From: Sulfitobacter sp. DFL-14
GTDB taxonomy: Bacteria > Pseudomonadota > Alphaproteobacteria > Rhodobacterales > Rhodobacteraceae
NCBI RefSeq assembly: GCF_003335585.1
Contig: NZ_QBFD01000046.1
Span: 397,345 to 461,344 of the forward strand
DNA length: 64,000 nt
Reading direction: 5' to 3'
Positions 14,603 through 31,845 of the stretch are shown here, piece by piece (position 1 is the first letter of the stretch; every line of letters begins with the position of its first letter). The position numbers were made by a program, and so were the translations under genes. Under the pieces are notes generated by a model. That model saw only the letters and a list, made by a program, of their open reading frames with translations, was not told the DNA's origin and ran no database searches.

Positions 14603-14945
14603 AGGGTTCCCGCCTGTCCCGGCATCACTGTCAGGTAACGAAGATCACAACATCATGATCTTGCGCAAGGTTTTGCAAGGGCGTGACCCGCCGCGCGGCA
14701 GGTGGCAGAGCCTGAAACCCCTTTATCAGAGACCAGTATAGGCCCGAAAAGGGCAGGGCGGCACGGTTTCTTGCGGGGGTCTTGTTTCAGATGCGTGATC
14801 CTGGCCATTTTGTCTACCCATGCGGGCGGGATCGAATTTCCTGTGGTCACTCTGTCCTGCGGGCTTTTTTCCCCTCGCGCGGGGGTGGAAACGGGTGACA
14901 TGACCTGACAAGGTTGCGCGAAGAAGTCGGGGGGGCCATCACCAT
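14603..14945. other. Divergent kinase/tupB intergenic region, no gene seen
   Basis: 343 bases between divergent genes. Both promoters should lie here. I see no open frame with family features, no confident riboswitch and no perfect sigma-54 site. A CCCC-TCGCGC-GGGG hairpin follows a T-run near 14865-14885. GGGGGGG just before the tupB ATG can serve as its ribosome-binding site. Confidence 0.6.
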
Positions 14946-15650: not shown

Positions 15651-16360
15651 TGGAATTGTTCCCGATGCAGGCCAGAGGAATTGAAAGCCGCAGGCACGGG
15701 CAGGTCCTTGTCGGGCCGGTTGATCTGAGGCTTGAGGGGCAGGGGGCCTGCGTGGTGATCGGGCCGAATGGTTCCGGCAAGACGACCCTGTTGCGCCTGT
15801 TGCACGGCACGGCGCGGTTGTCGGCGGGGCAGATCGACTGGGCCTGCTCGACCGAGGAAGCGCGCCACCATCAGGGCTTTGTCTTTCAGCGTCCGGTGAT
15901 GCTGCGCCGCACGGTGATGGAAAATCTGGCCTTTCCGCTGCGTCTGCGCAAGGTCCCGGCGGGTGAGGCCCGCGCGCGTGCCCGCGACTGGGCCGCGCGG
16001 GTGGGGTTGGAGCAGATGCTGGAGCGTCCCGCGCCGGTTCTGTCAGGGGGAGAGCAGCAAAAGCTGGCCCTGGCGCGGGCGCTGATATCAGAGCCTAAAG
16101 TGCTGTTTCTTGACGAACCCTGTGCCGCGCTGGACGGCCGCGCCACCCGCGAGATCGAAGAGATCCTGACAGCTGCGAAATCCACCGGCACGCGGCTGAT
16201 CCTGTCCACCCATGACATGGGGCAGGCGCGGCGGCTGGCAGACGATGTGCTGTTCCTGCTGGGCGGGCGCATCCATGAAAGCGGCCCGGCAGAGACATTT
16301 TTCAACCGGCCCGAAACGCCACAGGCACGGGCTTTTCTAAGAGGAGACATAGTCGAATGA
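15644..16360 (+). CDS. tupC: Tungstate ABC transporter ATPase TupC
   Basis: ABC ATPase of 238 aa: Walker A GPNGSGKTT near residue 45, signature LSGGEQQKLALARAL, Walker B VLFLDEPCAALD, and a switch His (STHDMGQARRL). It overlaps tupB by 7 bases and tupA by 4, so all three are made from one message. The N-terminal region reads ARGIESRRHGQVLVGPVDLRL, with a shortened A-loop zone compared with typical oxyanion ATPases. No C-terminal MOP/TOBE regulatory domain is present, in contrast to many ModC proteins. Confidence 0.88.
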   Translation: MVMELFPMQARGIESRRHGQVLVGPVDLRLEGQGACVVIGPNGSGKTTLLRLLHGTARLSAGQIDWACSTEEARHHQGFVFQRPVMLRRTVMENLAFPLRLRKVPAGEARARARDWAARVGLEQMLERPAPVLSGGEQQKLALARALISEPKVLFLDEPCAALDGRATREIEEILTAAKSTGTRLILSTHDMGQARRLADDVLFLLGGRIHESGPAETFFNRPETPQARAFLRGDIVE

Positions 16361-17169
16361 TGAAACACTTTGCAGTGACGCTGGCCGCGCTGGCCATCGG
16401 CACCGCCGCGCAGGCGGCGGATGTGATGAAAATGGCGGTGACCACGTCGTTCAACAACTCGGGGCTGGCGGAAGTTCTGCTGCCCGAGATCATGAAGGAT
16501 CTGGACCTCGAGGTGCAGTTGCTGGTCGTGGGCACCGGTCAGGCGATCAAGCTGGGAGAGGCGGGCGATGTGGACGCCATTCTGGTGCATTCGCGCAAGG
16601 CCGAAGAGGCCTTTGTCGAGGGTGGCTATGGCACCCATCGCACCGAGATCATGTATAATGATTTTGTGTTCATTGGCCCCGCCGAAGATCCGGCTGGCAT
16701 CAAGGATGCAGATTCAGCGGCAATGGCGTTGAAGGAAATTGCCGGGGCCGAGGCGCCCTTTGTCAGCCGTGGCGATGACAGCGGCACGCACAAGAAAGAG
16801 CTGTCGCTGTGGAAAGCGGCGGATCTGGACCCTGCGGGCTTTGGCGAATGGTACAAGGCCGTGGGGGCCGGCATGGGTGCCGCGCTGAACACTGCGTCGG
16901 GCATTCCGGCCTATATCATGTCGGACCGCGCAAGCTGGCTGAATTTCGGCAACAAGGGCGATCTTGCGTTGCTTTATGCAGGTGACCCGGTGCTGTTCAA
17001 CCAATACGCCTATCTGCCCGTGAACCCTGAAAAGCAGGCCCATGTGAAAACCGAACTGGCGGGCAAGCTGGAAACCTGGCTGACATCGGAACGCGCGGCA
17101 GAGTTGATCAACGATTACAAGATCAACGGCGAGACCCTGTTCGTGTTCAACGCCAAAGCGGCGGAATAA
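16357..17169 (+). CDS. tupA: Tungstate-binding periplasmic protein TupA
   Basis: Substrate-binding protein of 270 aa with a signal peptide (MMKHFAVTLAALAIGTAAQA, cleavage after AQA). VTTSFNNSGLAEVLLP carries the TTS-type oxyanion-contact motif characteristic of TupA, and VSRGDDSGTHKKELSLW supplies the second Ser/Asp/Thr set. Last gene of tupBCA; a perfect bidirectional hairpin terminator follows 16 bases after the stop. Binding proteins of this family prefer tungstate over molybdate; selectivity here is inferred from motif only. Confidence 0.91.
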   Translation: MMKHFAVTLAALAIGTAAQAADVMKMAVTTSFNNSGLAEVLLPEIMKDLDLEVQLLVVGTGQAIKLGEAGDVDAILVHSRKAEEAFVEGGYGTHRTEIMYNDFVFIGPAEDPAGIKDADSAAMALKEIAGAEAPFVSRGDDSGTHKKELSLWKAADLDPAGFGEWYKAVGAGMGAALNTASGIPAYIMSDRASWLNFGNKGDLALLYAGDPVLFNQYAYLPVNPEKQAHVKTELAGKLETWLTSERAAELINDYKINGETLFVFNAKAAE

Positions 17170-17214: not shown

Positions 17215-17712
17215 CTATTCCGGCAGGTCGCCGTGAATGGCGAATTGTTCCAGCCCCGCGTCCTGCGGCTGGATCACGCGAAAGCTTTCGCGCACCCCTG
17301 CGTCAGTCAGTTCGCGCGCCACGGTCAGCAGGGTGTTGGCGTCGTGGTCGGCGCACATGTCCATCATCTGCGACAGTTCCTCGGCGGCGACGGGGCGGGC
17401 GGCGTCCACGTCCGGCGCGCCATAGTAGGTGACGAAATGCTGCGCCAGCATCTCGGTCAGGGTGGCAACCTCGGACGGCTCCACCTGCGTCACCGCGACA
17501 AAGGTGACGCGGCCGAATGTCTCCAGACCCAGCCAGCCGTTGGCAAAGGCTTGTCGCGCCTTGCCGGTCAGGTCGCCCTCGGTCCAGTCCGAAAATTCGA
17601 AGCCGCCGGACACGCACCATTCGCCGGTGCGCGCGGGGCTGGAAAACACGTTCATGTCGCTTTCGTCAAAATGGATCGCGCGGGCAAGTTTGCGCAGGTC
17701 GGGCTGTGTCAC
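17215..17712 (-). CDS. DUF6505-type protein of formate dehydrogenase clusters
   Basis: 165-aa soluble protein with no signal peptide. I recognise it as the DUF6505 type: LARAIHFDESDMNVF near the N-terminus, and an acidic, Trp-containing middle FEFSDWTEGDLTGKARQAFANGWLG. The open frame extends further upstream, but the real start is the GTG at 17710-17712, which overlaps the stop of the ligase-like gene (GTGA) as the other genes of this operon do. Last gene of a minus-strand operon with Mrp and a multi-cluster ferredoxin inside a formate dehydrogenase island. Function is unknown; a role in cofactor or enzyme maturation is a guess from position. Confidence 0.72.
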   Translation of the reverse strand: MTQPDLRKLARAIHFDESDMNVFSSPARTGEWCVSGGFEFSDWTEGDLTGKARQAFANGWLGLETFGRVTFVAVTQVEPSEVATLTEMLAQHFVTYYGAPDVDAARPVAAEELSQMMDMCADHDANTLLTVARELTDAGVRESFRVIQPQDAGLEQFAIHGDLPE

Positions 17713-18425
17713 GGGCTGGGCTCCAATATGGCGGTCAGCGGGATCAGATGGGTGGTGTCGGCGCCGCGCAAGAGCAGGCCAAAGCGTTCGTCGACGCCAA
17801 GGTAGGTGCCGGTCTTGCCGCCCTGGGTTGTTTCCTCCCCGATGCCAAAGGCCAACCCGCGCCATGTGCTGTGCAGAGGCGCCACGCCTTCGCCGTCCCA
17901 GCGGCTGATCCAGTGCAGGCAGTGGCGGGCCCATGCCTCGACCAATGCGGGCGGGGAGACCTCCGCACATCCTTCGGCATAAAGCGCGGTCTGATCGGGG
18001 CGCAGGCCGGTTTCGGCAAGGTCGGGATCGTCCACCGGGTAAAGCGGCAGGGTGAAGCCCACCACCAGCCAGTCGGGCACCGCGTAGGGGTCGGTGGTGG
18101 AGGCCATGCAGCGAAACCGCCCGCAGGAAGCGTTGTTGATGCGAATGCCGCCGTCCCAGTCCAGATGCACCGCGATTTCCGGCGGTGCCAATGCGCCCAA
18201 TGCGTTCTGAAAGCCGATGCCACAGAGCGGCAGCATCGCCATCGCGTCCTGCAAGGGCACCTCGGGGGCAAAGACCAGCGCCGCCTCGACCGTGTGACCG
18301 GCCAGCGCATAGACCACCAGCCCCGCGTCACAACCCGCCGCCGCACGTCTGGCGGCGTGTTCGAACGCATCCGCCGCCACGGGTTCACCCCACATCAGTG
18401 GGGGGAAGCGCAGCGCCTCGCTCAT
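17709..18425 (-). CDS. Biotin/lipoate ligase-like protein (DUF4444 end), probably lacking ligase chemistry
   Basis: 238 aa. The protein has the fold-type layout of biotin/lipoate protein ligases with a C-terminal DUF4444-like segment (WRGLAFGIGEE then LGVDERFGLLLRG). The usual GRGRxGR lipoyl/biotin-AMP loop is not visible, and where KWPND should be the sequence reads HLDWDGGIRINN, with no lysine. That argues against normal ligase activity. Start and stop overlap both neighbours by 4 bases (Mrp upstream, DUF6505 downstream). It likely belongs to the formate dehydrogenase accessory set rather than to lipoate metabolism. Alternative: a genuine ligase with a divergent active site. Confidence 0.7.
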   Translation of the reverse strand: MSEALRFPPLMWGEPVAADAFEHAARRAAAGCDAGLVVYALAGHTVEAALVFAPEVPLQDAMAMLPLCGIGFQNALGALAPPEIAVHLDWDGGIRINNASCGRFRCMASTTDPYAVPDWLVVGFTLPLYPVDDPDLAETGLRPDQTALYAEGCAEVSPPALVEAWARHCLHWISRWDGEGVAPLHSTWRGLAFGIGEETTQGGKTGTYLGVDERFGLLLRGADTTHLIPLTAILEPSP

Positions 18426-19492
18426 GCGGCGCCGCTTTCGATCAGCTGCTTTGCGATGGCCTGAAAGCTGGCCGCCTGTGCGCTGTCGGGCTGGCTGACG
18501 GTGATCGGCGCGCCGCCGTCCGACGCCAGCCGGATTTGCAGATCCAGCGGCACCTCGGCCAGCAGGGGCACGCCCATTTTCGCGGCTTCGGTTGCGACAC
18601 CGCCGTGGCCGAACACATGTTCCTCGTGACCGCAGTTGGTGCAGATATGGGTCGACATATTCTCGATCATACCAATGATCGGCACCTTGAGCTGGTTGAA
18701 CATGTCAATCCCCTTGCGGGCATCCAGCAGGGCGACATCCTGCGGTGTAGAGACGATAATCGCCCCGTCCACCTGCGCCTTTTGCGCCAGTGTCATTTGC
18801 ACGTCGCCGGTGCCCGGGGGCAGATCCACGATCAGCACATCCAGCGCGCCCCATTGCACCTGTGTCATCATCTGTTGCAACGCGCCCATCAGCATGGGGC
18901 CGCGCCAGACAACCGCCTGATCCTCGTTGGTCATCAACCCGATGGACATCATCGTCACACCATGGTTGCGCATCGGCAGGATCGTCTTGCCATCGGGCGA
19001 GGCGGGTCGGCCGGACACACCCAACATGCGCGGCTGGCTGGGGCCGTAGACATCCGCATCCAGCAAGCCCACGCGCCGCCCCTGTTGCGCCAAGGCGCAG
19101 GCGAGGTTGGCGGACACGGTGGATTTGCCCACGCCACCCTTGCCCGAGGCGATGGCGATGATCCGGTCGATGCCGGGGATTTTCTGCGGGCCTTTCGGTT
19201 CTGCGGCGCGCTGCGGTTTCAGGTCGGGCGGCGGGGCCTTTTCGCTGTGGCCAGTCAACACGATGGAGACTTTGCCGATGCCTTCCACCTGGGCCAGCGC
19301 AGCCTCGGCCTGCGCCTTGGCTTCGGCATAGGCGGCGGCCTGGGCGGGCGGGATCTCCATGACAAAGCGCACCGCGCCCGTGGCATCCACATTCAGCGCG
19401 CGCATCACGCCGCTGGCGACGATGTCGGTATCGGTCGCCGGATCATTGACGGACTTGAGCGCGGTCAGAACCGCCTCCCTGCTGGCTGGCAC
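18422..19492 (-). CDS. mrp: Mrp/NBP35-type iron-sulfur cluster carrier ATPase
   Basis: 356 aa. An N-terminal DUF59/FSCA-like domain (about 1-90) precedes a P-loop domain with GKGGVGKSTVSANLA, the deviant Walker A of the Mrp/MinD family, and the C-terminal ICTNCGHEEHVFG motif, whose CxxC bridges a [4Fe-4S] cluster between subunits. It delivers Fe-S clusters to target proteins. The start is a GTG three bases after the stop of the upstream DUF6494 gene. Its location among multi-cluster proteins suggests a dedicated carrier for this formate dehydrogenase, possibly in addition to a housekeeping copy elsewhere. Confidence 0.92.
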   Translation of the reverse strand: MPASREAVLTALKSVNDPATDTDIVASGVMRALNVDATGAVRFVMEIPPAQAAAYAEAKAQAEAALAQVEGIGKVSIVLTGHSEKAPPPDLKPQRAAEPKGPQKIPGIDRIIAIASGKGGVGKSTVSANLACALAQQGRRVGLLDADVYGPSQPRMLGVSGRPASPDGKTILPMRNHGVTMMSIGLMTNEDQAVVWRGPMLMGALQQMMTQVQWGALDVLIVDLPPGTGDVQMTLAQKAQVDGAIIVSTPQDVALLDARKGIDMFNQLKVPIIGMIENMSTHICTNCGHEEHVFGHGGVATEAAKMGVPLLAEVPLDLQIRLASDGGAPITVSQPDSAQAASFQAIAKQLIESGAA

Positions 19493-19731: not shown

Positions 19732-21684
19732 TCAGTGATCGCGCCGTTTGGAAAGGTAATCATCGGTGGTGCGGGGCCGGGGGCGCTCACCACCCGCCAG
19801 CGGGTTGTCGGTGGCGTGATACTGCGCGTTGATGCGGCAATCATCACACATCTGGATCATGCGCAATTTGCCTTCGTCAGCAAACATCGAATGGTTGCGC
19901 AGTTTGTCGGTGATCCGGTCGATGGTGGATTTGACGCCAAACAGCGTGCCGCATTCGACGCAAGGAAAGGGCTCCTCCTCGTGCAGCACGCGCTGTTCCA
20001 GCGCAGCACCTGTCAGGTTCATCTGCGGGGCCAGGGTGATCGCATCTTCGGGGCAGATGTTGGCGCAGAGGCCGCATTGCAGACAGGCGTCTTCCTGAAA
20101 GCGCAACTGCGGCAGGTCCGGGTTGTCGCCCAATGCGCCCGAGGGGCAGAGCGAGACGCAGGACAGGCACAGGGTGCAGGCCGCGCTGTCAACCACGACG
20201 GCGCCATAGGGTGCGCCTGCGGGCAGGGGCAGCACCTCGGCCTCCGGGTGCAGGGCACGGGCGGCCTGGCGCGTGATCTGGCGGCGGGTGCCCATGGGTC
20301 GGACCGGTGTGGCGACGGGGGCAGGGGCCGCGCCGTCGTACAGGGTGTCGGACATGGTGTCCGGGTCGGGCGTGTCGATCAGCAGCACGCGGGTGTCACC
20401 CGCAATGGCGCGGGCCAGCTCGATTTGCGTATCAATCGCGTCGCGGTCGGATTTTGGCCCCAGCAGCAGGCTGACCTCTGCAAAACCGGCGGCCAGCGCC
20501 GCTAAAGCCTCGGCATGGCCGAAGGCCGCCAGTGCGGGCAGGGCCATGGGCACCACATCGGCGGGCAAGCCGCGCCCGTGCCGGGCCGACAGGCGGATCA
20601 TCTCGGCACCGTGGCTGTCGTCATGCACCATCAGGCGCGGGGATGTGCCGCCCGCTTCCAGATAGGCGCGGGCCAGCGTCTGCACCCGCAGCATGGTGAA
20701 ATCGACCGGCGGCGCATCATAGCTGATGGCACCAGAGGGGCAGGCGGCGGAACAGGCGCCGCAGCCTGCACAGATCATCGGGTCGATGCTCACATGGTCG
20801 CCGTCAGGCGTGATCGCCCCTGTCGGGCAGAGGTCCAGACAATTGGTGCAGGCGGTCTGCCCGGCGCGGCTGTGGGCGCAAAGCAGGGGCTCGGTGCGCA
20901 CATAGAGCGGCTTTTCAAAGGTGCCGACCATATGTGATGCGGCGAGTGTCGCGGCGGCCACTGCCGGGGGATGCGCAGGATCGGCGCGCAGGTAGCCTTC
21001 GCGTTTCTCGGGGGCGGGAAACAGCGGCTGGCCGCCGCGCAGATCGAGGATCAGATCACATTGGCTGACAGCCCCGTCCCGGGGCGCGCTCAGCCGCAGG
21101 GGCCCGCGGCCGGTGGGTTCAACCTGTTGCAATGCGTCGATCACCACTTCGAATTGCCCCAAAGCGCCTTTGGCGCGGCGCAGCCTGCCGGTGATGACGT
21201 CGTAATCGCGGGTGTCCGGCATCTCAGCCGCATCCTCAAGCAGCAGGGTAACGCCCAGAAAATCCTTGAGCTGTTCTGCCGCTGCAAGGGCCACCTCACC
21301 CTGCCCAAGGATCAGGCATAACCCCTGTGAGGCGACATCAAGCGACTTTTCCACCGGGGCGGCCAGCAAAGCCTCGGCGGCGAGGGCGGACATTTTGGGC
21401 AGTTTCGACGCGGGGTCATCGGACCATCCGGCCCGGTCGCGCAGGTCCAGCAGGGGGGCAGGGGGCAGGCCCAGCTCGTCTGCCAGTTCGGCAAATACCC
21501 GTGCTTCCTGGGTGCAGCATAAAATTGCATCCCCCTCCTTCAGGGCCTTGGCCGCGACATCAATCTGGCGGGTACACAGGGCGGAACAGGCAGCGGGGAC
21601 CACCAGACCGGTGGCTTTGGCAAGTGCGGGGGAATCGATGGTCTGAGAGCCTTCGCAATCACATGTTATCAATGCCTTGGCCAT
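19732..21684 (-). CDS. Multi-cluster 4Fe-4S ferredoxin-type protein of the FDH island
   Basis: 650-aa cytoplasmic Fe-S protein. Cys-rich N-terminus (C8, C10, C33, C37, C56, C57) somewhat like heterodisulfide reductase HdrA/delta-type segments; first ferredoxin pair at C279-C286 and C305-C315; second pair at C503-C513 and C534-C544; a C-terminal CxxC...CxxC knuckle (C575, C578, C613, C616), perhaps zinc. The first motif lacks the leading cysteine and may borrow C269. The middle (about 340-460) is free of cysteines and HdrD-like. First gene of the minus-strand accessory operon, divergent from DUF3305. It probably carries electrons or serves in maturation, but neither is shown. Confidence 0.8.
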   Translation of the reverse strand: MAKALITCDCEGSQTIDSPALAKATGLVVPAACSALCTRQIDVAAKALKEGDAILCCTQEARVFAELADELGLPPAPLLDLRDRAGWSDDPASKLPKMSALAAEALLAAPVEKSLDVASQGLCLILGQGEVALAAAEQLKDFLGVTLLLEDAAEMPDTRDYDVITGRLRRAKGALGQFEVVIDALQQVEPTGRGPLRLSAPRDGAVSQCDLILDLRGGQPLFPAPEKREGYLRADPAHPPAVAAATLAASHMVGTFEKPLYVRTEPLLCAHSRAGQTACTNCLDLCPTGAITPDGDHVSIDPMICAGCGACSAACPSGAISYDAPPVDFTMLRVQTLARAYLEAGGTSPRLMVHDDSHGAEMIRLSARHGRGLPADVVPMALPALAAFGHAEALAALAAGFAEVSLLLGPKSDRDAIDTQIELARAIAGDTRVLLIDTPDPDTMSDTLYDGAAPAPVATPVRPMGTRRQITRQAARALHPEAEVLPLPAGAPYGAVVVDSAACTLCLSCVSLCPSGALGDNPDLPQLRFQEDACLQCGLCANICPEDAITLAPQMNLTGAALEQRVLHEEEPFPCVECGTLFGVKSTIDRITDKLRNHSMFADEGKLRMIQMCDDCRINAQYHATDNPLAGGERPRPRTTDDYLSKRRDH

Positions 21685-22034
21685 GGGTTTTCCCTTGTTG
21701 AGTCTGCGATTTCAAGTGCGCTGCTGTCGCTGATCAGGCCCTAGGCTAGACGGCTTTCGGCCACCGCCACAACCGCAATTTTCTAAGCCCGCATCCGCAG
21801 TGGCGGTGCATCGGTAAATGCCGCGCAGCAGCATCGCATCGGGGTGATTCGTTTTCGGTTGCAGCATTATTTTCCTATAAAAACAGTCAGGTTGGACAAT
21901 TCGTCCAAGAGCCACAGCAAGGGCCAGGTTGGCGGGCCAAACTGTCTGGCAGCACAGGTTTTTCCGGCGATCCCCCTGTTTGACCTTCACAGGGGGCGGG
22001 CGCCTGGCGGAGGATGGTGAAAGGGAGGCGCGAC

Positions 22035-22604
22035 TTGATTCACAATCCAGCCATGTACCGGACAATGCCACTGGGTATCGTGCTGCGGCGCGCGCCCGGT
22101 GTGACCCGTTGGGCCAGGTGGAGCTGGAAGGCGACGGCTGTCCTGCCCGGTGCGCCGGATGCATCCTGGCGCGTGCTGCGCGAGAGTGACGGGACCACAG
22201 AATATCACGCGGCCACGGTGCCGCTGGACCTGCATGGCGCGGAGACCGAGGCCTATGTGCATGGGCTGGGGGCAGAGGTGCCTTGCGTCTATGTGGTGAT
22301 GCGCCCGATTGCGGGCGCGCAGGATCACCCCTTTCAGATCTTGCTGGTCACCGCATCGCCCTATGAGGCGCAGGATTACTGCGACAGCGCTGAAGAGGTG
22401 GTTGAAAAGGTTGCCATGCCCGAGGGGCTGGAGGCATGGGTGCGCGAATTTGTGGACCTGTTCCACGAGGAAGAGGCCTTTGTGAAGCGGCGGCGGAACA
22501 AGCAGACCGAAGGCACCCGGCAGGATGGTATCGGCGATCCGCGTATCCATACGGGTGCGGATGTCTATGCTTCGCCGGGGCTGAAACGGGGGCGTGTCCT
22601 ATGA
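22035..22604 (+). CDS. DUF3305 protein of formate dehydrogenase clusters
   Basis: 189 aa in this reading. Family block MPLGIVLRRAPGVTRWARWSWKA followed by EYHAATVPLDLHGAETEAYVHGL is DUF3305. The start is uncertain: a TTG at 22035 has AAGGGAGG six bases upstream and is preferred; ATG codons at 22053 and 22065 lack a signal, and the one at 22014 is too close to its purine run. No signal peptide or metal motif. The last codons overlap DUF3306 (ATGA). This gene, DUF3306, TorD and the Tat protein always travel with the Tat formate dehydrogenase as I recall the clusters; activity is unknown. Confidence 0.78.
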   Translation: MIHNPAMYRTMPLGIVLRRAPGVTRWARWSWKATAVLPGAPDASWRVLRESDGTTEYHAATVPLDLHGAETEAYVHGLGAEVPCVYVVMRPIAGAQDHPFQILLVTASPYEAQDYCDSAEEVVEKVAMPEGLEAWVREFVDLFHEEEAFVKRRRNKQTEGTRQDGIGDPRIHTGADVYASPGLKRGRVL

Positions 22605-23218
22605 GCGGTTTCTGGGATCGTCGCCGTGCTGCCGTTGCCGCCGAGGCGGAGGCCGAAGTTGCGGCCGCGCAGGAACAGGCGGCACAGGCGCAGGAAGCCA
22701 GCCTTGCCGCGCGCGATGACGACGCATTGCTGGCGGAACTTGAGCTGCCGGCACCGGAGGATCTGGTCGATGGCGAACAATTGCGGGCGTTTCTGAGGGC
22801 GCAATTGCCGCAGCGGCTGAAGCGGCGGGCCTTGCGCGCGTTCTGGCGCAGCAATCCGGTTCTGGCCTGTCTGGACGGGCTGAACGACTACGATGATGAT
22901 TACACCGCTGCTGCGACTGCGGGGAAGGCCGTCAATACGCTTTATCAGGTGGGCAAGGGATTTGCCGCGCCGCTGACCGAGGTGCTGGACGGGATCGCAC
23001 TTGAGGAAGAGCCAGAAGTTGAAATGGCATCCGCCGTGCCGGTCGACACGCTGTCGGTGCCGGATGTGGTGCCACCCACCGCCACATCGCCGATCGCGAC
23101 AGAGGTGCAGGCAGTGGGCGATCAGGATGAACCTGACGACACGGTAGACAGCCCTGCACCGGCCTTGCGGCGGATGCGGTTCAGTTTTGCAGCAGATGCG
23201 GAAAGCACAGGCGTATGA
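22601..23218 (+). CDS. DUF3306 protein
   Basis: 205 aa starting at the ATG that overlaps the DUF3305 stop. The N-terminal block SGFWDRRRAAVAAEAEAE is followed by an Ala/Glu-rich coiled-coil-like stretch, then the conserved core QRLKRRALRAFWRSNPVLACLDGLNDYDDDY, and a long acidic, low-complexity tail. No cysteines beyond one, no signal peptide. The stop overlaps the torD start. The core resembles an assembly factor rather than an enzyme. Function is unknown; it is inferred to act in FdhABC maturation because of the operon. Confidence 0.8.
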   Translation: MSGFWDRRRAAVAAEAEAEVAAAQEQAAQAQEASLAARDDDALLAELELPAPEDLVDGEQLRAFLRAQLPQRLKRRALRAFWRSNPVLACLDGLNDYDDDYTAAATAGKAVNTLYQVGKGFAAPLTEVLDGIALEEEPEVEMASAVPVDTLSVPDVVPPTATSPIATEVQAVGDQDEPDDTVDSPAPALRRMRFSFAADAESTGV

Positions 23219-23820
23219 ACCAGATGACATCCTCCCCCCTGCCCGAAGAAGACCGCCTGCGCGCGGATCTGTATAATTTCATCGGTTTGATCCTCTCTGG
23301 CCCACCGGACCAGATGCTGCTGGGTCAATGCAGTGAATTGCAGGGGGATGGCACGGAACTGGGGCAGGGGTTTGTCGCCCTGTCCAAGGTGGCACGGCTG
23401 AGCAAGCCCGCCGCCGTGGAAAGCGAATTCAACCGGCTGTTCATCGGGCTGGGGCGTGGCGAATTGCTGCCCTATGCCAGCTATTATCTGACCGGATTCC
23501 TGAACGAGAAGCCCTTGGCGCTGCTGCGGCAGGACATGGCCGCGCGCGGGTTGGCGCGGGCGGACAATGTGTTCGAGCCGGAAGACAATATCGCATCCCT
23601 GATGGAGATGATGGGCGCGATGATTGTCGGGCGGTTCGGGGTGGCGGCGACGCTGACCCAGCAAAAGACGTTCTTTGGCAAACATATTGCGCCCTGGGCG
23701 GGACATTTCTTTGCCGATCTTGAGGGGGCGAAGAATTCGGTCTTTTTCGCGCCCGTGGGCAAGATCGGGAGGGCCTTTATGGAGATCGAGGCCGAGGCAT
23801 TTCGACTGAGTATCAACTGA
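23215..23820 (+). CDS. TorD/DmsD-family chaperone for the formate dehydrogenase
   Basis: 201-aa all-helical chaperone. Characteristic elements are EDRLRADLYNFIGLILSGPPDQMLLGQ at the N-terminus, EFNRLFIGLGRGELLPYASYYLTGF, and EPEDNIASLMEMMGAMI near the end of the second half. Such proteins bind the Tat signal of a molybdo/tungsto-enzyme and hold it until cofactor insertion. The start overlaps the DUF3306 stop by 4 bases. Its client is presumably FdhA (Tat signal) and perhaps the small Tat protein just downstream. Confidence 0.88.
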   Translation: MNQMTSSPLPEEDRLRADLYNFIGLILSGPPDQMLLGQCSELQGDGTELGQGFVALSKVARLSKPAAVESEFNRLFIGLGRGELLPYASYYLTGFLNEKPLALLRQDMAARGLARADNVFEPEDNIASLMEMMGAMIVGRFGVAATLTQQKTFFGKHIAPWAGHFFADLEGAKNSVFFAPVGKIGRAFMEIEAEAFRLSIN

Positions 23821-24202: not shown

Positions 24203-27190
24203 ATGTTGAGGAAAAAGACCAACGGTGTTGCACGTAGCGCCCAACGGGGGAGCATCCTGTCGGATGTGGCCCGTTCCAGGATCGACCGCCGTGCGTTTCT
24301 GCGCGGGTCGGGGCTGGCAATTGGCGGGATGACGGCGATTGCCGCCACAGCAGGCAGCGTCAAACCGGCAACGGCGGCTTCGGCTGCGGGGACCGGCGCG
24401 ATCGAGATCAAGAAATCCGTCTGCACCCATTGTTCGGTCGGCTGCACAGTGATTGCCGAAGTTTCGGGTGGTGTCTGGGTCGGGCAGGAGCCGGGATGGG
24501 ACAGCCCGTTCAACCTTGGCGCCCATTGCGCCAAGGGCGCGTCGGTGCGCGAACACGCCCACGGCGAACGTCGCCTGAAGTACCCGATGAAGAAAGTCGG
24601 CAGCGAATGGCAGCGCATTTCCTGGGAACAGGCGATCAACGAGATCGGCGACAAGATGATGTCGATTCGCGACACCTCCGGCCCCGACAGCGTCTATTGG
24701 CTGGGCTCGGCGAAACACTCCAACGAACAGGCCTATCTGTTCCGCAAGTTTGCCGCCTATTGGGGCACCAACAACGTGGATCACCAGGCGCGTATTTGCC
24801 ATTCGACCACGGTTGCGGGTGTTGCGAACACATGGGGCTACGGCGCCATGACCAACAGCTACAACGATATCCACAATTCCAAGGCGATCTTCATCATCGG
24901 CGGCAACCCTGCCGAAGCGCATCCGGTCTCGCTTCAGCACCTGCTGAAGGCCAAGGAACAGAACAATGCGCCGCTGATCGTCTGCGATCCGCGCTTTACC
25001 CGCACGGCGGCCCATGCGGACGAATTCGTGCGCTTCCGGCCCGGTTCGGACGTGGCGCTGGTCTGGGGCATTCTCTACCACATCTTCGACAACGGCTGGG
25101 AGGATCAGGAGTTCATCCGCACCCGTGTCTGGGGCATGGACGAGATCCGCAAGGAGGTGGCCAACTGGACACCCGACGAGGTCGAGCGTGTCACAGGCGT
25201 GCCCGAGGCGCAGCTGAAACGCGTGGCCCGCACATTGGCCAACAACCGCCCCGGCACCGTGATCTGGTGCATGGGCGGCACGCAGCACACCAACGGCAAC
25301 AACAACACCCGCGCCTATTGCATCCTGCAGCTTGCGCTGGGGAACATGGGTGTGGCCGGGGGCGGCACCAACATCTTCCGCGGCCATGACAACGTGCAGG
25401 GGGCAACCGATCTGGGTGTTCTGGCCGATACGCTGCCGGGCTACTACGGATTGTCCGATGGCTCATGGGCGCATTGGGCGCGGGTCTGGGAAGAAGACCT
25501 GGATTGGCTCAAGGGCCGGTTTGCCACGATGAAAGGCGCCGATGGCAAAGACGTGCCGATGATGGGGCTGACGGGCATTCCGGTGTCGCGCTGGATCGAC
25601 GGCGTGCTGGAAGCGCGCGAAAATCTGGAACAGCCCGACAATACCAAGGCGATGGTGCTTTGGGGTCATGCGCCCAACTCGCAGACCCGCCAGAAGGAAA
25701 TGAAAACGGCGATGGAAAAGCTCGACCTGCTGGTCGTGGTGGACCCCTATCCAACCGTCTCCGCCGTTCTGCACGACCGCACCGATGGCACCTATCTGCT
25801 GCCTGCATCGACGCAGTTCGAAACGTCGGGCTCTGTCACCGCATCCAACCGGTCGCTGCAATGGCGCGAAAAGGTCGTCGAGCCGCTGTTTGAATCGCTG
25901 CCGGACCAGACGATCCTGTACAAGTTCGCCGCCAAGTTCGGCTTTGCGGACCGCATGTTCCGCAACATCGAGGTGAACGGAGAGGAACCGCTGGTCGAGG
26001 ATCTGACCCGCGAGTTCAACCGCGGCATGTGGACCATCGGCTATACCGGTCAAAGCCCGGAACGGCTGAAGATGCACATGGCAAACCAGCATACCTTCGA
26101 CAAGACCACGCTGCGGGCCAATGGCGGCCCGGCGGACGGTGACTTCTACGGATTGCCCTGGCCAAGCTGGGGCACGCCGGAGATGAACCACCCCGGCACG
26201 GCGAACCTCTATGACATGTCGCTGCCGGTGGCCGAAGGCGGTTTGACCTTCCGCGCCCGGTTCGGGGTGGAACGCGACGGGGACAACCTGCTGGCCGAAG
26301 GCGTCTATTCCAAAGGGTCCGAAATTCAGGATGGATACCCTGAATTCACCATGCAGATGCTGATCGACCTCGGCTGGGATGGTGATCTGACACCGGAGGA
26401 ACGCAAGTCCATCGAAATGGTCGCGGGCTACGAGCGACCGGAAGACGCCGAAGAAGGCACCGAAGAGGTGGGGGAAACCTCGCAACAGGGTGAAATGCCA
26501 TCTGACTATGTGGAGGCGGTTGGCGGTGTGAACTGGAAGACCGACCTGTCGGGCGGCATCCAGCGCGTCGCGATTGCACATGGTTGTGCCCCCTTCGGCA
26601 ACGCCAAGGCGCGCTGCGTGGTCTGGACCTTCCCCGATCCCGTGCCGCTGCACCGTGAACCGCTTTACAGCAACCGCCGCGACCTGGTGGCGGATTATCC
26701 GACCTATGATGACAAGACATTCTGGCGGGTGCCGACGCTCTATGCCTCCATCCAGAAGAATGACTTTTCGCAGGACTTCCCGATCATCCTCACCTCCGGC
26801 CGGTTGGTCGAATACGAGGGCGGCGGGGATGAAACGCGGTCGAACCCCTGGCTGGCCGAGTTGCAACAGAACATGTTCATCGAGGTCAACACCCGTGATG
26901 CCAACAATCTTGGCGTCCGCGACGGTGCCGACGTCTGGGTCGAAGGCCCGGAAGGCGGGCGGATCAAGGTCATGGCCATGGTCACCGAACGGGTGGGCGA
27001 GGGGGTTGCATTCATGCCCTTCCACTTTGGCGGTCACATGGAAGGGGTCAGCCTGCGGGACAAATATCCCGATGGGGCCGATCCGATCGTGCTGGGGGAA
27101 TCCACCAACACGGTTCAGACCTATGGCTACGATTCAGTCACCCAGATGCAAGAGACCAAAGCGACTCTTTGCAAAATCATGCCAGCGTAA
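24203..27190 (+). CDS. fdhA: Formate dehydrogenase catalytic subunit, Tat-exported, cysteine type
   Basis: 995-aa molybdo/tungsto-bis-pterin oxidoreductase of periplasmic type. Tat signal DRRAFLRG (Arg29-Arg30) with a hydrophobic stretch; [4Fe-4S] ligands C74, C77, C81, C109; the metal ligand is Cys199 in ARICHSTT (selenocysteine in E. coli FdnG), encoded by TGC, so no SECIS is needed. The bis-pterin contacts are recognisable across the central domains. An acidic insert around residues 748-770 (PEDAEEGTEEVGE) is unusual. Oxidises formate to CO2 with electrons passing to FdhB and FdhC. Adjacent tupBCA suggests tungsten use. GGGAG is 7-8 bases before the ATG; fdhB follows after 11 bases. Confidence 0.95.
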   Translation: MLRKKTNGVARSAQRGSILSDVARSRIDRRAFLRGSGLAIGGMTAIAATAGSVKPATAASAAGTGAIEIKKSVCTHCSVGCTVIAEVSGGVWVGQEPGWDSPFNLGAHCAKGASVREHAHGERRLKYPMKKVGSEWQRISWEQAINEIGDKMMSIRDTSGPDSVYWLGSAKHSNEQAYLFRKFAAYWGTNNVDHQARICHSTTVAGVANTWGYGAMTNSYNDIHNSKAIFIIGGNPAEAHPVSLQHLLKAKEQNNAPLIVCDPRFTRTAAHADEFVRFRPGSDVALVWGILYHIFDNGWEDQEFIRTRVWGMDEIRKEVANWTPDEVERVTGVPEAQLKRVARTLANNRPGTVIWCMGGTQHTNGNNNTRAYCILQLALGNMGVAGGGTNIFRGHDNVQGATDLGVLADTLPGYYGLSDGSWAHWARVWEEDLDWLKGRFATMKGADGKDVPMMGLTGIPVSRWIDGVLEARENLEQPDNTKAMVLWGHAPNSQTRQKEMKTAMEKLDLLVVVDPYPTVSAVLHDRTDGTYLLPASTQFETSGSVTASNRSLQWREKVVEPLFESLPDQTILYKFAAKFGFADRMFRNIEVNGEEPLVEDLTREFNRGMWTIGYTGQSPERLKMHMANQHTFDKTTLRANGGPADGDFYGLPWPSWGTPEMNHPGTANLYDMSLPVAEGGLTFRARFGVERDGDNLLAEGVYSKGSEIQDGYPEFTMQMLIDLGWDGDLTPEERKSIEMVAGYERPEDAEEGTEEVGETSQQGEMPSDYVEAVGGVNWKTDLSGGIQRVAIAHGCAPFGNAKARCVVWTFPDPVPLHREPLYSNRRDLVADYPTYDDKTFWRVPTLYASIQKNDFSQDFPIILTSGRLVEYEGGGDETRSNPWLAELQQNMFIEVNTRDANNLGVRDGADVWVEGPEGGRIKVMAMVTERVGEGVAFMPFHFGGHMEGVSLRDKYPDGADPIVLGESTNTVQTYGYDSVTQMQETKATLCKIMPA

Positions 27191-27201
27191 GGAGATAGAC
27201 A

Positions 27202-27795
27202 ATGGCCAGAGCAAAATTTCTCTGCGATGCCGAACGCTGCATCGAATGTAACGCCTGTGTCACGGCCTGCAAGAACGAGCATGAGGTGCCCTGGGGCATC
27301 AACCGCCGTCGGGTGGTGACCATTCAGGACGGCAAGCCGGGCGAACGCTCGATCTCGGTCGCCTGCATGCATTGTTCGGATGCGCCCTGTATGGCGGTTT
27401 GTCCGGTGGATTGCTTTTACCAGACCGACGAAGGTGTGGTGCTGCACTCCAAGGATCTGTGCATTGGTTGCGGCTATTGCTTCTATGCCTGCCCATTCGG
27501 CGCGCCGCAATATCCGCAGGCGGGCAACTTCGGCTCGCGTGGCAAGATGGACAAATGCACCTTCTGCGCCGGTGGTCCGGAGGAAAACAATTCCCAGGCG
27601 GAGTTCCAGAAGTACGGGCGCAACCGGATTGCAGAGGGCAAATTGCCGATCTGCGCCGAGATGTGTTCGACCAAGGCGCTGCTGGCGGGCGATGGCAATG
27701 TGGTCTCTGACATCTACCGCGAACGTGTGGTGGCGCGGGGCTTTGGCTCTGGTGCCTGGGGCTGGGGCACGGCCTACGAACAGAAGGGTCAGTAA
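27202..27795 (+). CDS. fdhB: Formate dehydrogenase iron-sulfur subunit
   Basis: 197-aa electron-transfer subunit with four [4Fe-4S] motifs: CIECNACVTACK, CMHCSDAPCMAVCP, CIGCGYCFYACP and CTFC...CAEMC. The pattern matches the HybA/FdnH-like beta subunits of respiratory formate dehydrogenases. No transmembrane anchor and no signal of its own, so it should leave the cell together with FdhA. TAAGGAG lies 7 bases before the ATG. A hairpin and a short spacer separate it from fdhC. Confidence 0.95.
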   Translation: MARAKFLCDAERCIECNACVTACKNEHEVPWGINRRRVVTIQDGKPGERSISVACMHCSDAPCMAVCPVDCFYQTDEGVVLHSKDLCIGCGYCFYACPFGAPQYPQAGNFGSRGKMDKCTFCAGGPEENNSQAEFQKYGRNRIAEGKLPICAEMCSTKALLAGDGNVVSDIYRERVVARGFGSGAWGWGTAYEQKGQ

Positions 27796-27894: not shown

Positions 27895-29097
27895 ATGCTG
27901 CGCCATCTGATGGCATTGTTTGTTCTTGTACTGCTGGCCTTGCCCGGCGTCGCCTCTGCACAGGACGTGCGTCCGCCCGACAACGCGGTCAATGTCGATG
28001 CGCCCCGCGCCTCGACCGGCGGGGCGCAAACGCTTCAGGACGTGCTGCGCCGACAGCAGGGCCTTGCGGTTGACGACAGCTTCCGCCGCAACAACATCGG
28101 CGGCGATGCAGGCACCGCACCCGGGCTGGGGCCCCTTGGTGGGACCTCGGATTCCGAACAATGGCGCGCGCTGCGCTATAACGAGGCGGACGTGCGCGTG
28201 ACCACCCTGAACACCACCGGCAAGGTGCTGGTGCAGGATGGTGGCATGTGGTGGCTGGATATCCGCCGCGGTGCCTTGCCGACCTATGGCGGCTGGCTGC
28301 TGCTGGGCACGCTGGCCATTCTGGCGATCTTTTTCCTTCTACGCGGCCGCGTGCGGGTCGAGGACGGCATGTCGGGGCGCACTGTCACCCGGTTCAAGGC
28401 GATTGAACGCTTTGCCCACTGGATGCTCGCAGGGTCCTTCATCCTGCTGGCGGTTACCGGGCTGCTGTCCCTGTTCGGACGCAAGGTGTTGATTCCGGTC
28501 TTTGGCCACGGCTTCAACTCGGTCCTGCTGACGGGGACAAAATACATTCACGACAACGTCTCATGGGCGTTCATGATTGCGCTGGTGATGGTGTTCGTGA
28601 TGTGGGTCTGGCACAATCTGCCCGACCGCACCGACCTGACCTGGGTCCGCTATGGCGGCGGTATCATCGGCAAGAAACACCCGCCCGCCAAGAAATTCAA
28701 CGCCGGTCAAAAGCTGATTTTCTGGTCGGTGATCCTGCTGGGCGCATCGGTCTCTGTATCGGGTCTGTCGATGCTGTTCCCCTTCGACATGCCGCTGTTC
28801 GGACATAACTTTGCGGTGCTGAATGACACCGGCCTGCCACAGGCCCTGGGGTATGGCACATTGCCCGTCGATCTGGCGCCGCAGGAAGAAATGCAATATG
28901 CACAGCTGTGGCATGCCATCATCGGTTTCGTCATGATGGCGATCATCTTTGGCCACATCTATATCGGGACGCTGGGCATGGAAGGCGCCTATGATGCGAT
29001 GGGGTCTGGCGAGGTTGACGTGAACTGGGCCGAGCAGCACCATTCGATCTGGCTGGAAAAAGTCAAAGAGACCGAGCATCGGAGCCCTGCGGAATGA
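27895..29097 (+). CDS. fdhC: Formate dehydrogenase cytochrome b subunit
   Basis: 400-aa membrane subunit with a signal-like N-terminus (LMALFVLVLLALPGVASAQ), an extra periplasmic stretch (to about residue 130), and then several membrane segments. FKAIERFAHWMLAGSF and the later LWHAIIGFVMMAIIFGHIYIGTLGMEGAYDAM carry the conserved His residues that ligate two b hemes in FdnI-type subunits. It passes electrons from FdhB to quinone. The long N-terminal region before the four-helix core is larger than in E. coli FdnI (217 aa). The operon continues 34 bases later with a 41-codon membrane ORF. Confidence 0.93.
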   Translation: MLRHLMALFVLVLLALPGVASAQDVRPPDNAVNVDAPRASTGGAQTLQDVLRRQQGLAVDDSFRRNNIGGDAGTAPGLGPLGGTSDSEQWRALRYNEADVRVTTLNTTGKVLVQDGGMWWLDIRRGALPTYGGWLLLGTLAILAIFFLLRGRVRVEDGMSGRTVTRFKAIERFAHWMLAGSFILLAVTGLLSLFGRKVLIPVFGHGFNSVLLTGTKYIHDNVSWAFMIALVMVFVMWVWHNLPDRTDLTWVRYGGGIIGKKHPPAKKFNAGQKLIFWSVILLGASVSVSGLSMLFPFDMPLFGHNFAVLNDTGLPQALGYGTLPVDLAPQEEMQYAQLWHAIIGFVMMAIIFGHIYIGTLGMEGAYDAMGSGEVDVNWAEQHHSIWLEKVKETEHRSPAE

Positions 29098-29131: not shown

Positions 29132-29257
29132 ATGAAAGTGATGTTTGCAGGCTTTGCCGGGGTCATGTTGATCGGTGTCGTGGCCTATTTCGGCCTGCAC
29201 GAGATGGGCTTTTCCTCTCAGGATGTTTATTCCAGTGGTAATGTCAGATTGGACTGA
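29132..29257 (+). CDS. Single-pass small membrane protein after fdhC
   Basis: 41-codon ORF: MKVMFAGFAGVMLIGVVAYFG, then HEMGFSSQDVYSSGNVRLD. It has one N-terminal hydrophobic segment (about residues 4-21) and a short polar tail. AAAAGGA lies about 9 bases upstream of the ATG, and the gene sits 34 bases after fdhC and 21 bases before the response-regulator start, on the same strand. Such tiny subunits occur in respiratory complexes. No family recognised; translation is inferred from signal, position and a protein-like composition. Confidence 0.6.
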   Translation: MKVMFAGFAGVMLIGVVAYFGLHEMGFSSQDVYSSGNVRLD

Positions 29258-29278: not shown

Positions 29279-30634
29279 ATGGCGGTACGGGACGAATACG
29301 GGGGCACGCTTGAGGGCGCGTCGGTTCTGATTATCGACGACGAGCCGGGCATGCGGCATTTCCTGACCAAGATTCTGGAACCGCGGGTGAAACGGGTGGC
29401 GCAGGCGGCCTCGCCGGCCGAGGCGACAAAGCTGCTGGATGCGGCACATTTTGACGTGGTGGTGCTGGACAATGTCATGCCGGGCAAGACCGGGCTGGAG
29501 TGGGTCAACGAACAGCGCCGCATGGGGTTCTATGCTGACACGATCCTGATCACCGCCTATGCGGATCTGGAAACCGCCATCGCCGCGCTGCGGGCGGGCG
29601 TCAGTGACTTTGTGCTCAAACCGTTTCGGACCAATCAGATTCTGGGTGCGGTGTCGCGCACTCTGGACCGCAAGAATCTCCGCCGGGATAACACATTGCT
29701 GCGCCGCGAGCTGCACGCGGGAACGGCGGTGCAGATGCTGGGCAAGTCGCAGGCCCTGGGGGCGGTGCGCCGCATGTTGACCCGTCTGGCGCCGCTGCCG
29801 ACACCGGTTCTGTTCACGGGGGCCAGCGGCACCGGCAAGGAACTGGCGGCGCGGCAATTGCACCAGATGTCAGGCCGGAGCGACAAGCCCTTTGTCGCGG
29901 TGAACTGCGCCGCCATTTCACCGGATCGGATCGTGCCGGAGCTGTTCGGGTCGGTGGAGGGCAATGAGACGTTAAAGCCGGGGCTGTTACTGCTGGCGGA
30001 CGGCGGCACGTTGTTTCTGGACGAGGTCGCGCAGATGCCGGAGGCGTTGCAGGCGGCGCTTTTGCGGGTGCTGGAAGACCAGACCATCCGCCCGCAGGGA
30101 GGCGAGCGGGAGATCCCGCTGGACCTGCGGTTCCTGTTTGCCACCAACGCCAACCTGGAAAAGGCGGTGGCAGAGGGCCGTTTCCGTGCCGATCTCTATC
30201 ACCGGATCAATGTGGTCGAGATCGAGATGCCGCCATTGAAAGACCGGTCCGAAGACATCGTCGAACTGGCGGCATTGTTCATGGAGCAGTTTTCCACGGT
30301 CCTGGGCATGCCCGCGCTGCGGCTTGATGCGGAAACCCTGCTGAAACTGCGGCGCTATGACTGGCCCGGAAATGTGCGCGAGCTGCGCAATCTAATCGAA
30401 CGGTCGGTCATCCTCGGCGCTTTCCCCGAGGGTTTCTCGGGCCATGGTTCCGTCGCCGGGACGCGGGCAATCGAAGACCTGGACCTGGTGATACAGCGGC
30501 ATGTTTTACATGTTCTGGATCTGTGCAAAGGAAACCGCGCAGAAGCCGCTCGGCGGCTGGGGGTGTCGCGCAAGACCATCGACCGCAAGATGGCGGTATG
30601 GGGTGAAGCGGGAATCGATATCGACCTGGCCTGA
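29279..30634 (+). CDS. NtrC-family response regulator lacking the sigma-54 GAFTGA loop
   Basis: 451 aa: receiver domain (phospho-acceptor Asp64 in VVLDNVMPG, Lys114), AAA+ domain with Walker A GASGTGKE (181-188) and Walker B GGTLFLDEV (242-250), and a C-terminal Fis-type HTH (RAEAARRLGVSRKTIDRKM). Where GAFTGA follows ELFG in sigma-54 activators, this protein has ELFGSVEGNETLKPGLLL, so the loop is missing. It should therefore act without sigma-54, as known for R. capsulatus NtrC and HupR. The likely partner is the orphan kinase at 12644-14602. Confidence 0.9.
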   Translation: MAVRDEYGGTLEGASVLIIDDEPGMRHFLTKILEPRVKRVAQAASPAEATKLLDAAHFDVVVLDNVMPGKTGLEWVNEQRRMGFYADTILITAYADLETAIAALRAGVSDFVLKPFRTNQILGAVSRTLDRKNLRRDNTLLRRELHAGTAVQMLGKSQALGAVRRMLTRLAPLPTPVLFTGASGTGKELAARQLHQMSGRSDKPFVAVNCAAISPDRIVPELFGSVEGNETLKPGLLLLADGGTLFLDEVAQMPEALQAALLRVLEDQTIRPQGGEREIPLDLRFLFATNANLEKAVAEGRFRADLYHRINVVEIEMPPLKDRSEDIVELAALFMEQFSTVLGMPALRLDAETLLKLRRYDWPGNVRELRNLIERSVILGAFPEGFSGHGSVAGTRAIEDLDLVIQRHVLHVLDLCKGNRAEAARRLGVSRKTIDRKMAVWGEAGIDIDLA

Positions 30635-30731: not shown

Positions 30732-31845
30732 TTGTGAACTCACGGTGAAGTGCAGTTCTTGATATCTCGTTTTACTCCAACCGGTTCTTTATTTCCATCA
30801 GGTTGCTTTCAAAGACCTCGGCCGGTGTCCGGTAGCCAAGGCACTTGCGCGGCGTTGCGTTGAGGCGCTGACAAATCGACCTCAAATATCGATTTGTCAG
30901 CGCCGTCGGTGCGGTTGATCTTGGCAGGTACCGGCGCAGCCTATTGTTCGTATTCTCAACAGTGCCTTTTTGATAGGGCGCTTGCGGGTCACAGAACCAG
31001 GCATCCGCACCGATCCCGGCCTTGAGATGTTTCCAGGCCGAGAACTCGGTGCCGCGGTCGAAGGTGATCGACTGGCGCGCGTCGGCGGGCAGGGGAGCCA
31101 ACCCGTTGATCAGCGTCTCCATGATGGGCCTGGACTGACGGTCTTCGTTGCGCATCACGACAGCGTACCGGCTGACGCGCTCGACCAGTGACGTCACGTT
31201 CACCTTCCCATGCTCCTTGCGGAACATCATCAAGTCGCACTCCCAATGGCCGAATTCCAAGCGTTCTGAGACGCGCTCAGGCCTGTGTGACAGGCTTTGA
31301 ACGTCGAATATGTGGGTTCTGTTGTGCCTGCGGTAACCACGCGGCCGGCGGCGGCGGCGATGCTCAGGGAGATAGCGGTAGAACTGTTCCTCGCGACCGT
31401 CTTTGGAATACGCAAAGCGATAGATCGTCTCGTGGCTCACGCGGACCGGGTGCCGTTCGAGCCGCATCCGACCGGCTATCTGTTCGGGCGACCAGCCAGC
31501 CTTCAGGCGGTCTTCGATGGCGGCTTTCAAATCAGGGTGAATGATCATCTTGCGATGGATCGCGCGGCGCTGCGCATATTTGTCCTGAGCGACGAGCGCG
31601 TGATACCCATTTAGCTCAGGCAGTTCGTTGTCCGTGTACCGATTACGCCTAATGTCTCTGTAGATCGTGGACGGGTCGCGACCCAGTCGATCCGCGATCT
31701 CTGAAATCGGCATTTTGGCTTCAAGCCACTTTGCAAGCTTGCGACGTTCGTCCAGCTTCAGGTGACAGTAGTGGGTTCCCATTTTTCAACCTCCGTGCAA
31801 CTCTCTGTTTTAGTAAAGAATTTGCACTTCGTTTGTGAATCCACC
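30732..31845 (-). mobile_element. IS30-family insertion sequence
   Basis: About 1.1 kb with one transposase and imperfect inverted ends: GAAGTGCA...TTCTT at 30747-30759 on the left, and its counterpart (AAGAA...TGCACTTC) at 31817-31830 on the right. A weaker outer match GTG-A-TCAC lies at both ends. Exact borders and target duplication are not certain. The element stands between the response regulator and the P450 block. Confidence 0.75.
30772..31782 (-). CDS. IS30-family transposase
   Basis: 336 aa, a full-length IS30 transposase: N-terminal HTH_38-type helix-turn-helix (LDERRKLAKWLEAKMPISEIADRLGRDPSTIYRDIRRN), the integrase core with first Asp in FGHWECDLM, second Asp in ITFDRGTEF and the Glu in KGTVENTNNRLRRY, and the conserved tail CLGYRTPAEVF. 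No frameshift, so it may be active. On the minus strand inside imperfect inverted repeats. Confidence 0.94.
   Translation of the reverse strand: MGTHYCHLKLDERRKLAKWLEAKMPISEIADRLGRDPSTIYRDIRRNRYTDNELPELNGYHALVAQDKYAQRRAIHRKMIIHPDLKAAIEDRLKAGWSPEQIAGRMRLERHPVRVSHETIYRFAYSKDGREEQFYRYLPEHRRRRRPRGYRRHNRTHIFDVQSLSHRPERVSERLEFGHWECDLMMFRKEHGKVNVTSLVERVSRYAVVMRNEDRQSRPIMETLINGLAPLPADARQSITFDRGTEFSAWKHLKAGIGADAWFCDPQAPYQKGTVENTNNRLRRYLPRSTAPTALTNRYLRSICQRLNATPRKCLGYRTPAEVFESNLMEIKNRLE

Follow-up and report, generated by a model that had tools for sequence, protein, structure and literature searches.

The protein encoded at 29279–30634 (+) in Sulfitobacter sp. DFL-14 is an NtrC-family response regulator without the GAFTGA loop, and it is likely to be a formate-linked two-component regulator that binds a predicted palindrome and activates the formate dehydrogenase (FDH3) operon with a sigma-70-type polymerase, without sigma-54. 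The window, that is, the whole stretch of DNA analysed, is 64 000 nucleotides long; the regulator, called REG below, is an ORF of 451 aa with an ATG start and Pfam domains. This reading draws on features seen in the sequences themselves: the absence of the loop, the lack of a sigma-54 match in the genome, an operator that is conserved and depends on the presence of REG, and two promoter contexts. Activators without GAFTGA are already known; unusual here is the survival of the sigma-54 form in orthologues that use the same operator. No description of REG was found in open-access papers.

REG consists of a receiver domain (residues 16–125), a Sigma54_activat AAA+ domain (154–316), an AAA lid (321–379) and a Fis-type helix–turn–helix domain (HTH, 409–439). 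The receiver, AAA+ and HTH domains are those of a bacterial enhancer-binding protein (NtrC family, group 1), and the motifs of this group, Walker A and B, arginine fingers and sensor II, are also present. The two Walker motifs, GASGTGKE and LFLDE, had been described as retained in the first-pass annotation, correctly so. The phosphoacceptor set D20, D21, D64, T92 and K114 shows no variation among 12 aligned orthologues. In NCBIfam, REG obtains 336.5 of 600 bits for NtrX and 317.3 of 558.6 bits for NtrC, reaching neither family cut-off, and no HupR model is among the 25 best matches shown. The AlphaFold model (mean pLDDT 75, pTM 0.47) is too loose to judge the loop geometry; Foldseek with this model confirms family membership only, with NtrX (5m7n/o/p) on top. 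The closest solved structures by sequence include Aquifex NtrC1, in which the loop is present, and Brucella NtrX, which is without GAFTGA.

At the position of GAFTGA, REG reads ELFG-SVEGNETLKP-GLLLLADGGTLFLDE. Alignment of orthologues places the replacement of the L1 loop, SVEGNETLKP, at residues 225–234 (29951–29980, +); the string EGNETLKPG, named earlier as the substitute, is found in REG, and GAFTGA is absent. A scan of the contigs of genomes gave 565 relatives, of which the best 80 were fetched and compared. GAFTGA is present in seven of these 80 and GAFTSA in one, all from Rhizobiales, and neither occurs in the other 72. The Rhizobiales orthologues have a segment of 14 residues (e.g. HIKGAFTGAEAARE) where REG has 10, which amounts to a shortening by four residues plus substitution. 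The segment is 7–14 residues long in REG and the 72 non-Rhizobiales orthologues. Because all of these 72 (among the best 80 of 565) share the loss, a sequencing error concealing a real GAFTGA, an outcome considered at the start, is in practice excluded.

Across 73 rows without GAFTGA, no other 10-residue window of the AAA+ domain varies as much as the loop (2.46 bits, rank 1 of 217 windows); the entropies at Walker A, Walker B, the arginine fingers and sensor II are 0–0.27 bits. The recognition helix segment has an entropy of 0.1 bits in the same rows. The strict arginine-finger pattern is missed by four rows: L072, L096 and L126, which retain DLYHR with the first residue changed, and L113. 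Loss of Walker B, arginine-finger and sensor II residues is seen only in the distant copy L165. As the ATPase motifs are nearly invariant next to a variable loop, ATP handling by the REG family is, judged by conservation, still under selection, though sigma-54 cannot be the partner. A lost loop combined with otherwise retained AAA+ motifs is the pattern of GAFTGA-less activators of the housekeeping polymerase. The L165 copy (L165:9811–11229, −) is of a second type; it too has lost the loop and kept the HTH, and it adjoins its own kinase, antiporter and FDH genes.

The genome, with the window on contig 46, comprises 5.70 Mb in 47 contigs (99.99% complete, 1.43% contamination). It has no match to the DNA-binding domain (PF04552) or the core-binding domain (PF04963) of sigma-54. 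The controls of this search were positive in 4 of 14 genomes, namely E. coli, B. subtilis, Caulobacter and Bacteroides, and two Sulfitobacter genomes (G149 and G150) searched for RpoN gave no match. There are 15 stretches matching PF00158, corresponding to nine clear NtrC-type AAA+ proteins. None of the nine has GAFTGA, so the entire NtrC-type set of this genome is without the sigma-54 contact; several of them show greater erosion of the Walker and arginine-finger motifs. A search for a real GAFTGA elsewhere in the genome gave a single exact DNA match, whose reading frame runs opposite a metal-ATPase-like ORF. The rpoN-mutant test proposed in the first-pass annotation has no target here, since no sigma-54 match exists.

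REG is present in 30 of the 149 genomes of the family (E up to 1e-110), and a match to the sigma-54 DNA-binding domain above the cut-off in 44. Because nine of the 30 genomes having REG retain a strong RpoN match (E < 1e-30), the loss of the loop is not a mere consequence of the loss of rpoN and, as judged from these matches, is the wider of the two. Among the best 80 of the 565 relatives, the search for RpoN covered the genomes of 47 loci; the match is strong in all eight Rhizobiales and in 12 of 39 others, and four others have weak short matches. Counting GAFTGA-encoding DNA patterns (84 of the 149 family genomes) is uninformative, as the reversed control pattern is frequent too.

The FDH3 operon begins with a DUF3305 protein (22035–22604, +; TTG start predicted by aligning the upstream regions), followed by a DUF3306 protein (22436–23218, +; ORF as listed, the true start being probably further downstream) and a TorD/DmsD-like chaperone (Nitrate_red_del; 23215–23820, +). 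The formate dehydrogenase subunits come next: alpha (24203–27190, +; best NCBIfam match Fdh-alpha, under the cut-off), FDH3 beta (27202–27795, +; NF038355, over the cut-off) and gamma (27895–29097, +; TIGR01583, over the cut-off). Between fdhC and REG, just upstream of REG, lies the gene for a conserved protein of 41 aa, MKVMFAGFAGVMLIGVVAYFGLHEMGFSSQDVYSSGNVRLD (29132–29257, +), which probably has a single membrane span; it has no match in NCBIfam and is found in 56 of the 72 non-Rhizobiales loci (best 80 of 565). A multi-cluster ferredoxin-type protein (19732–21684, −) is encoded divergently and shares the operator region.

This arrangement is common among the same 72 loci (best 80 of 565). 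These carry Rhodobacterales record titles or belong to unclassified alphaproteobacterial bins, with L089 as one further record. The FDH3 beta gene (at least 80% identical) is present in 71 of them, L080 being the exception, and in those 71 the REG orthologue is the end of the FDH3 operon. The usual order is ferredoxin (−) / DUF3305, DUF3306, TorD-like, fdhA, fdhB, fdhC, [WD40-cytochrome c], [41-aa protein], REG. The WD40-propeller/cytochrome c protein occupies its place between fdhC and REG in 37 of the 72 (e.g. L070:8524–9837) and is not in the window. FDH3 beta occurs in 75 of the 149 family genomes: 27 of the 30 with REG versus 48 of the 119 without it (Fisher 8e-7). In the eight Rhizobiales loci of the best 80, REG is followed in every case by a sensor kinase and an oxalate/formate-antiporter-type MFS transporter, and five of the eight have an NAD-type FDH (fdsA, at least 80%). 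The antiporter type is putative, the top NCBIfam score being that of the L-lactate MFS transporter, just below the cut-off. The query used for an oxalate/formate antiporter gave no match in the DFL-14 genome, in a search without positive control.

The predicted partner histidine kinase (652 aa; sCache_3, HAMP, HisKA and HATPase_c) is encoded at 12644–14602 (−). It is 53% identical to the kinase adjoining the Rhizobiales regulator, and the second-best match in the genome is far weaker. The kinase is within the same ±10 kb locus as REG in 42 of the 72 non-Rhizobiales and in 8 of the 8 Rhizobiales loci (best 80 of 565); by this adjacency of orthologues, it and REG are a predicted two-component pair. 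With its extracytoplasmic sCache sensor, it would probably phosphorylate REG at D64. Directly downstream of REG in the window is an IS30-family transposase (30772–31782, −), at whose place several relatives (e.g. L085 and L099) have the partner kinase. Divergent from the kinase gene are genes of a tungstate-type ABC transporter (14946–17169, +; TupB-, ATPase- and TupA-like, below the NCBIfam cut-offs).

The predicted operator of REG, TTGGACAATTCGTCCAA (21892–21908, unstranded; PWM score 20.1), lies upstream of the FDH3 operon and is a perfect 6-bp inverted repeat, TTGGAC-N5-GTCCAA, with the core GGAC-N5-GTCC. A weak second copy 41 bp downstream (21933–21949, unstranded) scores 6.4 and is not significant alone. 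The start codon of the DUF3305 gene follows the two copies at distances of 94 and 135 bp. Among 52 FDH3 regions, the best-scoring pair is 41 bp apart in 44 (spacings of 40–43 bp were searched), and the second copy scores at least 9 in 25.

The operator matrix was built from 13 Rhizobiales sites. Scores of at least 12 are found in 47 of the 52 FDH3 divergent regions, five scoring lower, versus 3 of 946 control stretches, a test that is partly circular in that the core was first seen in the window and then picked the Rhizobiales training sites. The strict core pattern is present in 26 of 64 FDH3 regions, part of which had wrongly drawn boundaries, and is about 197 times denser inside those regions (39 in 21 kb) than outside (14 in 1.5 Mb). 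It is also present in all eight Rhizobiales kinase–transporter gaps (best 80 of 565).

Comparison by the presence of REG is the cleaner control. It covered 20 of the 27 genomes with REG and FDH3, and 20 of the 48 with FDH3 and without REG. With REG, 16 of 19 loci (L201 is without the region) have a site of at least 12 no more than 320 bp upstream of where DUF3305 starts; without REG, there is no such site anywhere in the 20 FDH3 loci (157 kb). In the region anchored on the polyferredoxin gene, the site is found in 11 of 13 with REG versus 0 of 16 without (Fisher 2e-6). L190, L193 and L197 have REG and no upstream site; the maximum in L190 is 8.3, and the site of L193 is in coding sequence. The genome G055, from the same genus as the window, has FDH3 without REG and without an operator site. 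The predicted operator is thus found to track the presence of REG, specifically in the FDH3 promoter region. There is no genome-wide enrichment of the pattern in DFL-14 (18 versus 27 for the reversed control), and the genome-wide search yielded no wider regulon. Apart from 21892–21908, the window contains four matrix sites of at least 12, three of them within coding sequence. A weaker operator-like site (14801–14817, unstranded; score 12.1) is found in the gap that separates the kinase gene from those of the tungstate transporter. An AT-rich operator candidate at C46:302576 was rejected, being inside a long ORF.

In Rhizobiales, the operator accompanies a −24/−12 element, TGGCAC-N5-TTGC, whose score is 9–10 of 10 in seven loci, with Roseibium at 8 of 10. 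Only 0–5 of 200 shuffles are as good in seven of the eight loci; in Roseibium, 42 of 200 are, and the element is not significant alone. In all eight loci (best 80 of 565), the GG of the element is 59–61 bp from the centre of the proximal operator, with the operator upstream. The spacing between operators is 22–23 bp in most Rhizobiales pairs and 43 bp in Roseibium. Upstream of the Rhizobiales fds genes, no sigma-54 site above 7 of 10 was found in five loci.

The GAFTGA-less FDH3 regions are different. An operator for anchoring is available in 49 of 52, and an element of at least 8 of 10 at 56–64 bp on either side of it occurs in none of the 49, the best being 7 of 10 (L122). In the window, the best scores upstream of FDH3, the ferredoxin gene, the kinase, the tungstate genes and REG are 5–7 of 10, equalled by 92–170 of 200 shuffles. 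A sigma-70 consensus scan of 21640–22080 gave a single site, overlapping the coding start, and no promoter was placed; hexamer profiles of the FDH3 regions show only weak peaks, located +39/40 and +46 relative to the proximal operator. The antiporter-linked Rhodobacterales copies L164 (GAFPGA) and L166 (GVVPGA) have three operators, 42–43 bp apart, upstream of the antiporter gene. No sigma-54 element is found in these upstream regions (L164:13246–13400 and L166:12915–13060); instead of the −24 element, they have a TTGAC hexamer that begins at a distance of 39 bp from the last operator. It appears that the class of promoter changed and that regulator and operator were kept as a pair.

REG therefore lacks the features of a sigma-54-dependent activator: the GAFTGA loop, sigma-54 in the genome and a −24/−12 promoter, the last as judged in the window regions tested and at operator-anchored positions. 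With the contact loop missing, a genome in which no sigma-54 gene was found and no −24/−12 element at the Rhizobiales position, REG would not use sigma-54. According to the first-pass annotation, the lost loop takes away the step that needs sigma-54, and control of the formate island may do without this factor; this is supported by three results, the missing PF04552 and PF04963 matches, the missing −24/−12 element and the operator tracking REG. We infer that REG binds the palindrome GGACA-N3-YGTCC in the gap that separates the divergent ferredoxin gene from the FDH3 operon and that bound REG would switch the operon on via a sigma-70-type RNA polymerase, with a role for ATP that may differ from the original one.

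Repression of FDH3 by REG, or repression by its unphosphorylated form with relief by the kinase, would also dispense with sigma-54. GAFTGA-less relatives may act in this way, since Caulobacter NtrC represses CtrA-activated genes according to passages of PMC10274813, and the palindrome lies between divergent genes. We nevertheless consider repression unlikely: the Rhizobiales operator, 59–61 bp upstream of a sigma-54 promoter, has the arrangement of an activator site, both copies in the window are upstream of the expected core promoter, and a repressor sits poorly with the strongly conserved ATPase residues. It is considerably more doubtful that REG regulates itself or other genes and that FDH3 merely shares its locus. 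An operator upstream of an operon with REG at its 3' end would control REG as well, and the weaker site lies upstream of the kinase and tungstate genes; yet the operator follows REG specifically at the FDH3 promoter region, and the excess of FDH3 in REG genomes speaks against mere sharing of a locus.

A sigma-54 too divergent for Pfam, or outside the 47-contig assembly, might still be the partner of REG. The genome is a draft and the search covered PF04552 and PF04963, but the completeness of the assembly, two negative models and the negative G149 and G150 genomes make this highly improbable, and REG has no contact loop anyway. We give almost no weight to the idea that REG is a functionless, decaying relic. 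The loop is gone, and in the distant L165 copy so are Walker B, arginine-finger and sensor II residues; over 73 rows, nonetheless, conservation extends to receiver, ATPase and HTH, the ORF of REG is intact and the operator is kept only where REG is present.

A tree of REG was built from 45 of the 84 available rows. One group (97/98) unites the Rhizobiales GAFTGA rows and three antiporter-linked Rhodobacterales copies, and the FDH3-linked rows lie outside it. If GAFTGA is ancestral, as in the NtrC family at large, the loop was lost at least twice; more than one loss is probable because the GAFTGA clade takes in the antiporter-linked Rhodobacterales copies. The number of losses is not settled by the 45-row tree, whose root is unsure and in which the outgroup branch is very long and that of L165 long. 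On balance we favour the view that the REG family documents a natural change of sigma factor: the same regulator and operator would have passed from a sigma-54 promoter at a constant distance of 60 bp in Rhizobiales to a promoter of another class in Rhodobacterales. The operator copies would have been re-spaced from 22–23 to about 41–43 bp and the loop lost, probably more than once, with strong selection preserving the ATPase for another task at a promoter of the sigma-70 type.

The precedents cited in the first-pass annotation, R. capsulatus NtrC and HupR acting with the housekeeping sigma factor, are borne out by passages of PMC10274813 and PMC3162934. R. capsulatus NtrC, like REG, is an NtrC-type response regulator without the GAFTGA loop; it is a reported activator of the housekeeping polymerase (as cited in passages of PMC10274813). 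It controls nitrogen genes, whereas REG is found with formate dehydrogenase, a different operator and a genome without a sigma-54 match. Caulobacter NtrC is likewise an alphaproteobacterial NtrC-type protein with a shortened L1; it has an eight-residue deletion, smaller than that of R. capsulatus NtrC, and acts at sigma-70 promoters (passages of PMC10274813). The same passages say that the R. capsulatus protein requires ATP binding and not hydrolysis, and the Caulobacter protein both. Caulobacter NtrC is not an orthologue of REG, and Caulobacter, a control genome above, has sigma-54. HupR of R. capsulatus, listed as sigma-70 dependent in a passage of PMC3162934, resembles REG as a GAFTGA-defective response regulator with an oxidoreductase operon, that of a hydrogenase; target and partner differ. 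NtrX of Brucella abortus (5m7n/o/p) has a segment of the same length, also without GAFTGA, and gives the best NCBIfam score and top Foldseek hit, but REG is only about 32% identical to it and a separate NtrX (L003) exists in the genome.

The nearest system is that of the Rhizobiales orthologues (L130, L136, L139–L142, L144 and L145), which share 57–59% identity with REG, the same operator, an orthologous kinase and 17–21 of 24 residues of the recognition helix. Unlike REG, they keep GAFTGA or GAFTSA, RpoN and the −24/−12 promoter, and their operator is upstream of the oxalate/formate-antiporter-type MFS gene instead of FDH3. One orthologous regulator and one operator with both promoter classes, in hosts with and without sigma-54, would allow direct swaps of loop, spacing and promoter, and bear on how sigma-54 independence arises and why the ATPase persists in NtrC-type proteins. 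REG and its operator would make up a testable formate regulon for marine Rhodobacterales, and in genomes such as that of Sulfitobacter sp. DFL-14 the label 'sigma-54-dependent regulator' would be a wrong annotation for REG.

Beside the ferredoxin gene, the window carries a gene for an ApbC-type Fe–S carrier (18422–19492), adjoined by DUF6505 and biotin/lipoate-ligase-like genes (17215–18425, −). Among the relatives, L089 (JAFKDC010000005.1) is titled Enemella evansiae, an actinobacterial name; its sequence is Rhodobacteraceae-like and includes an FDH3 locus, so the title is doubtful.
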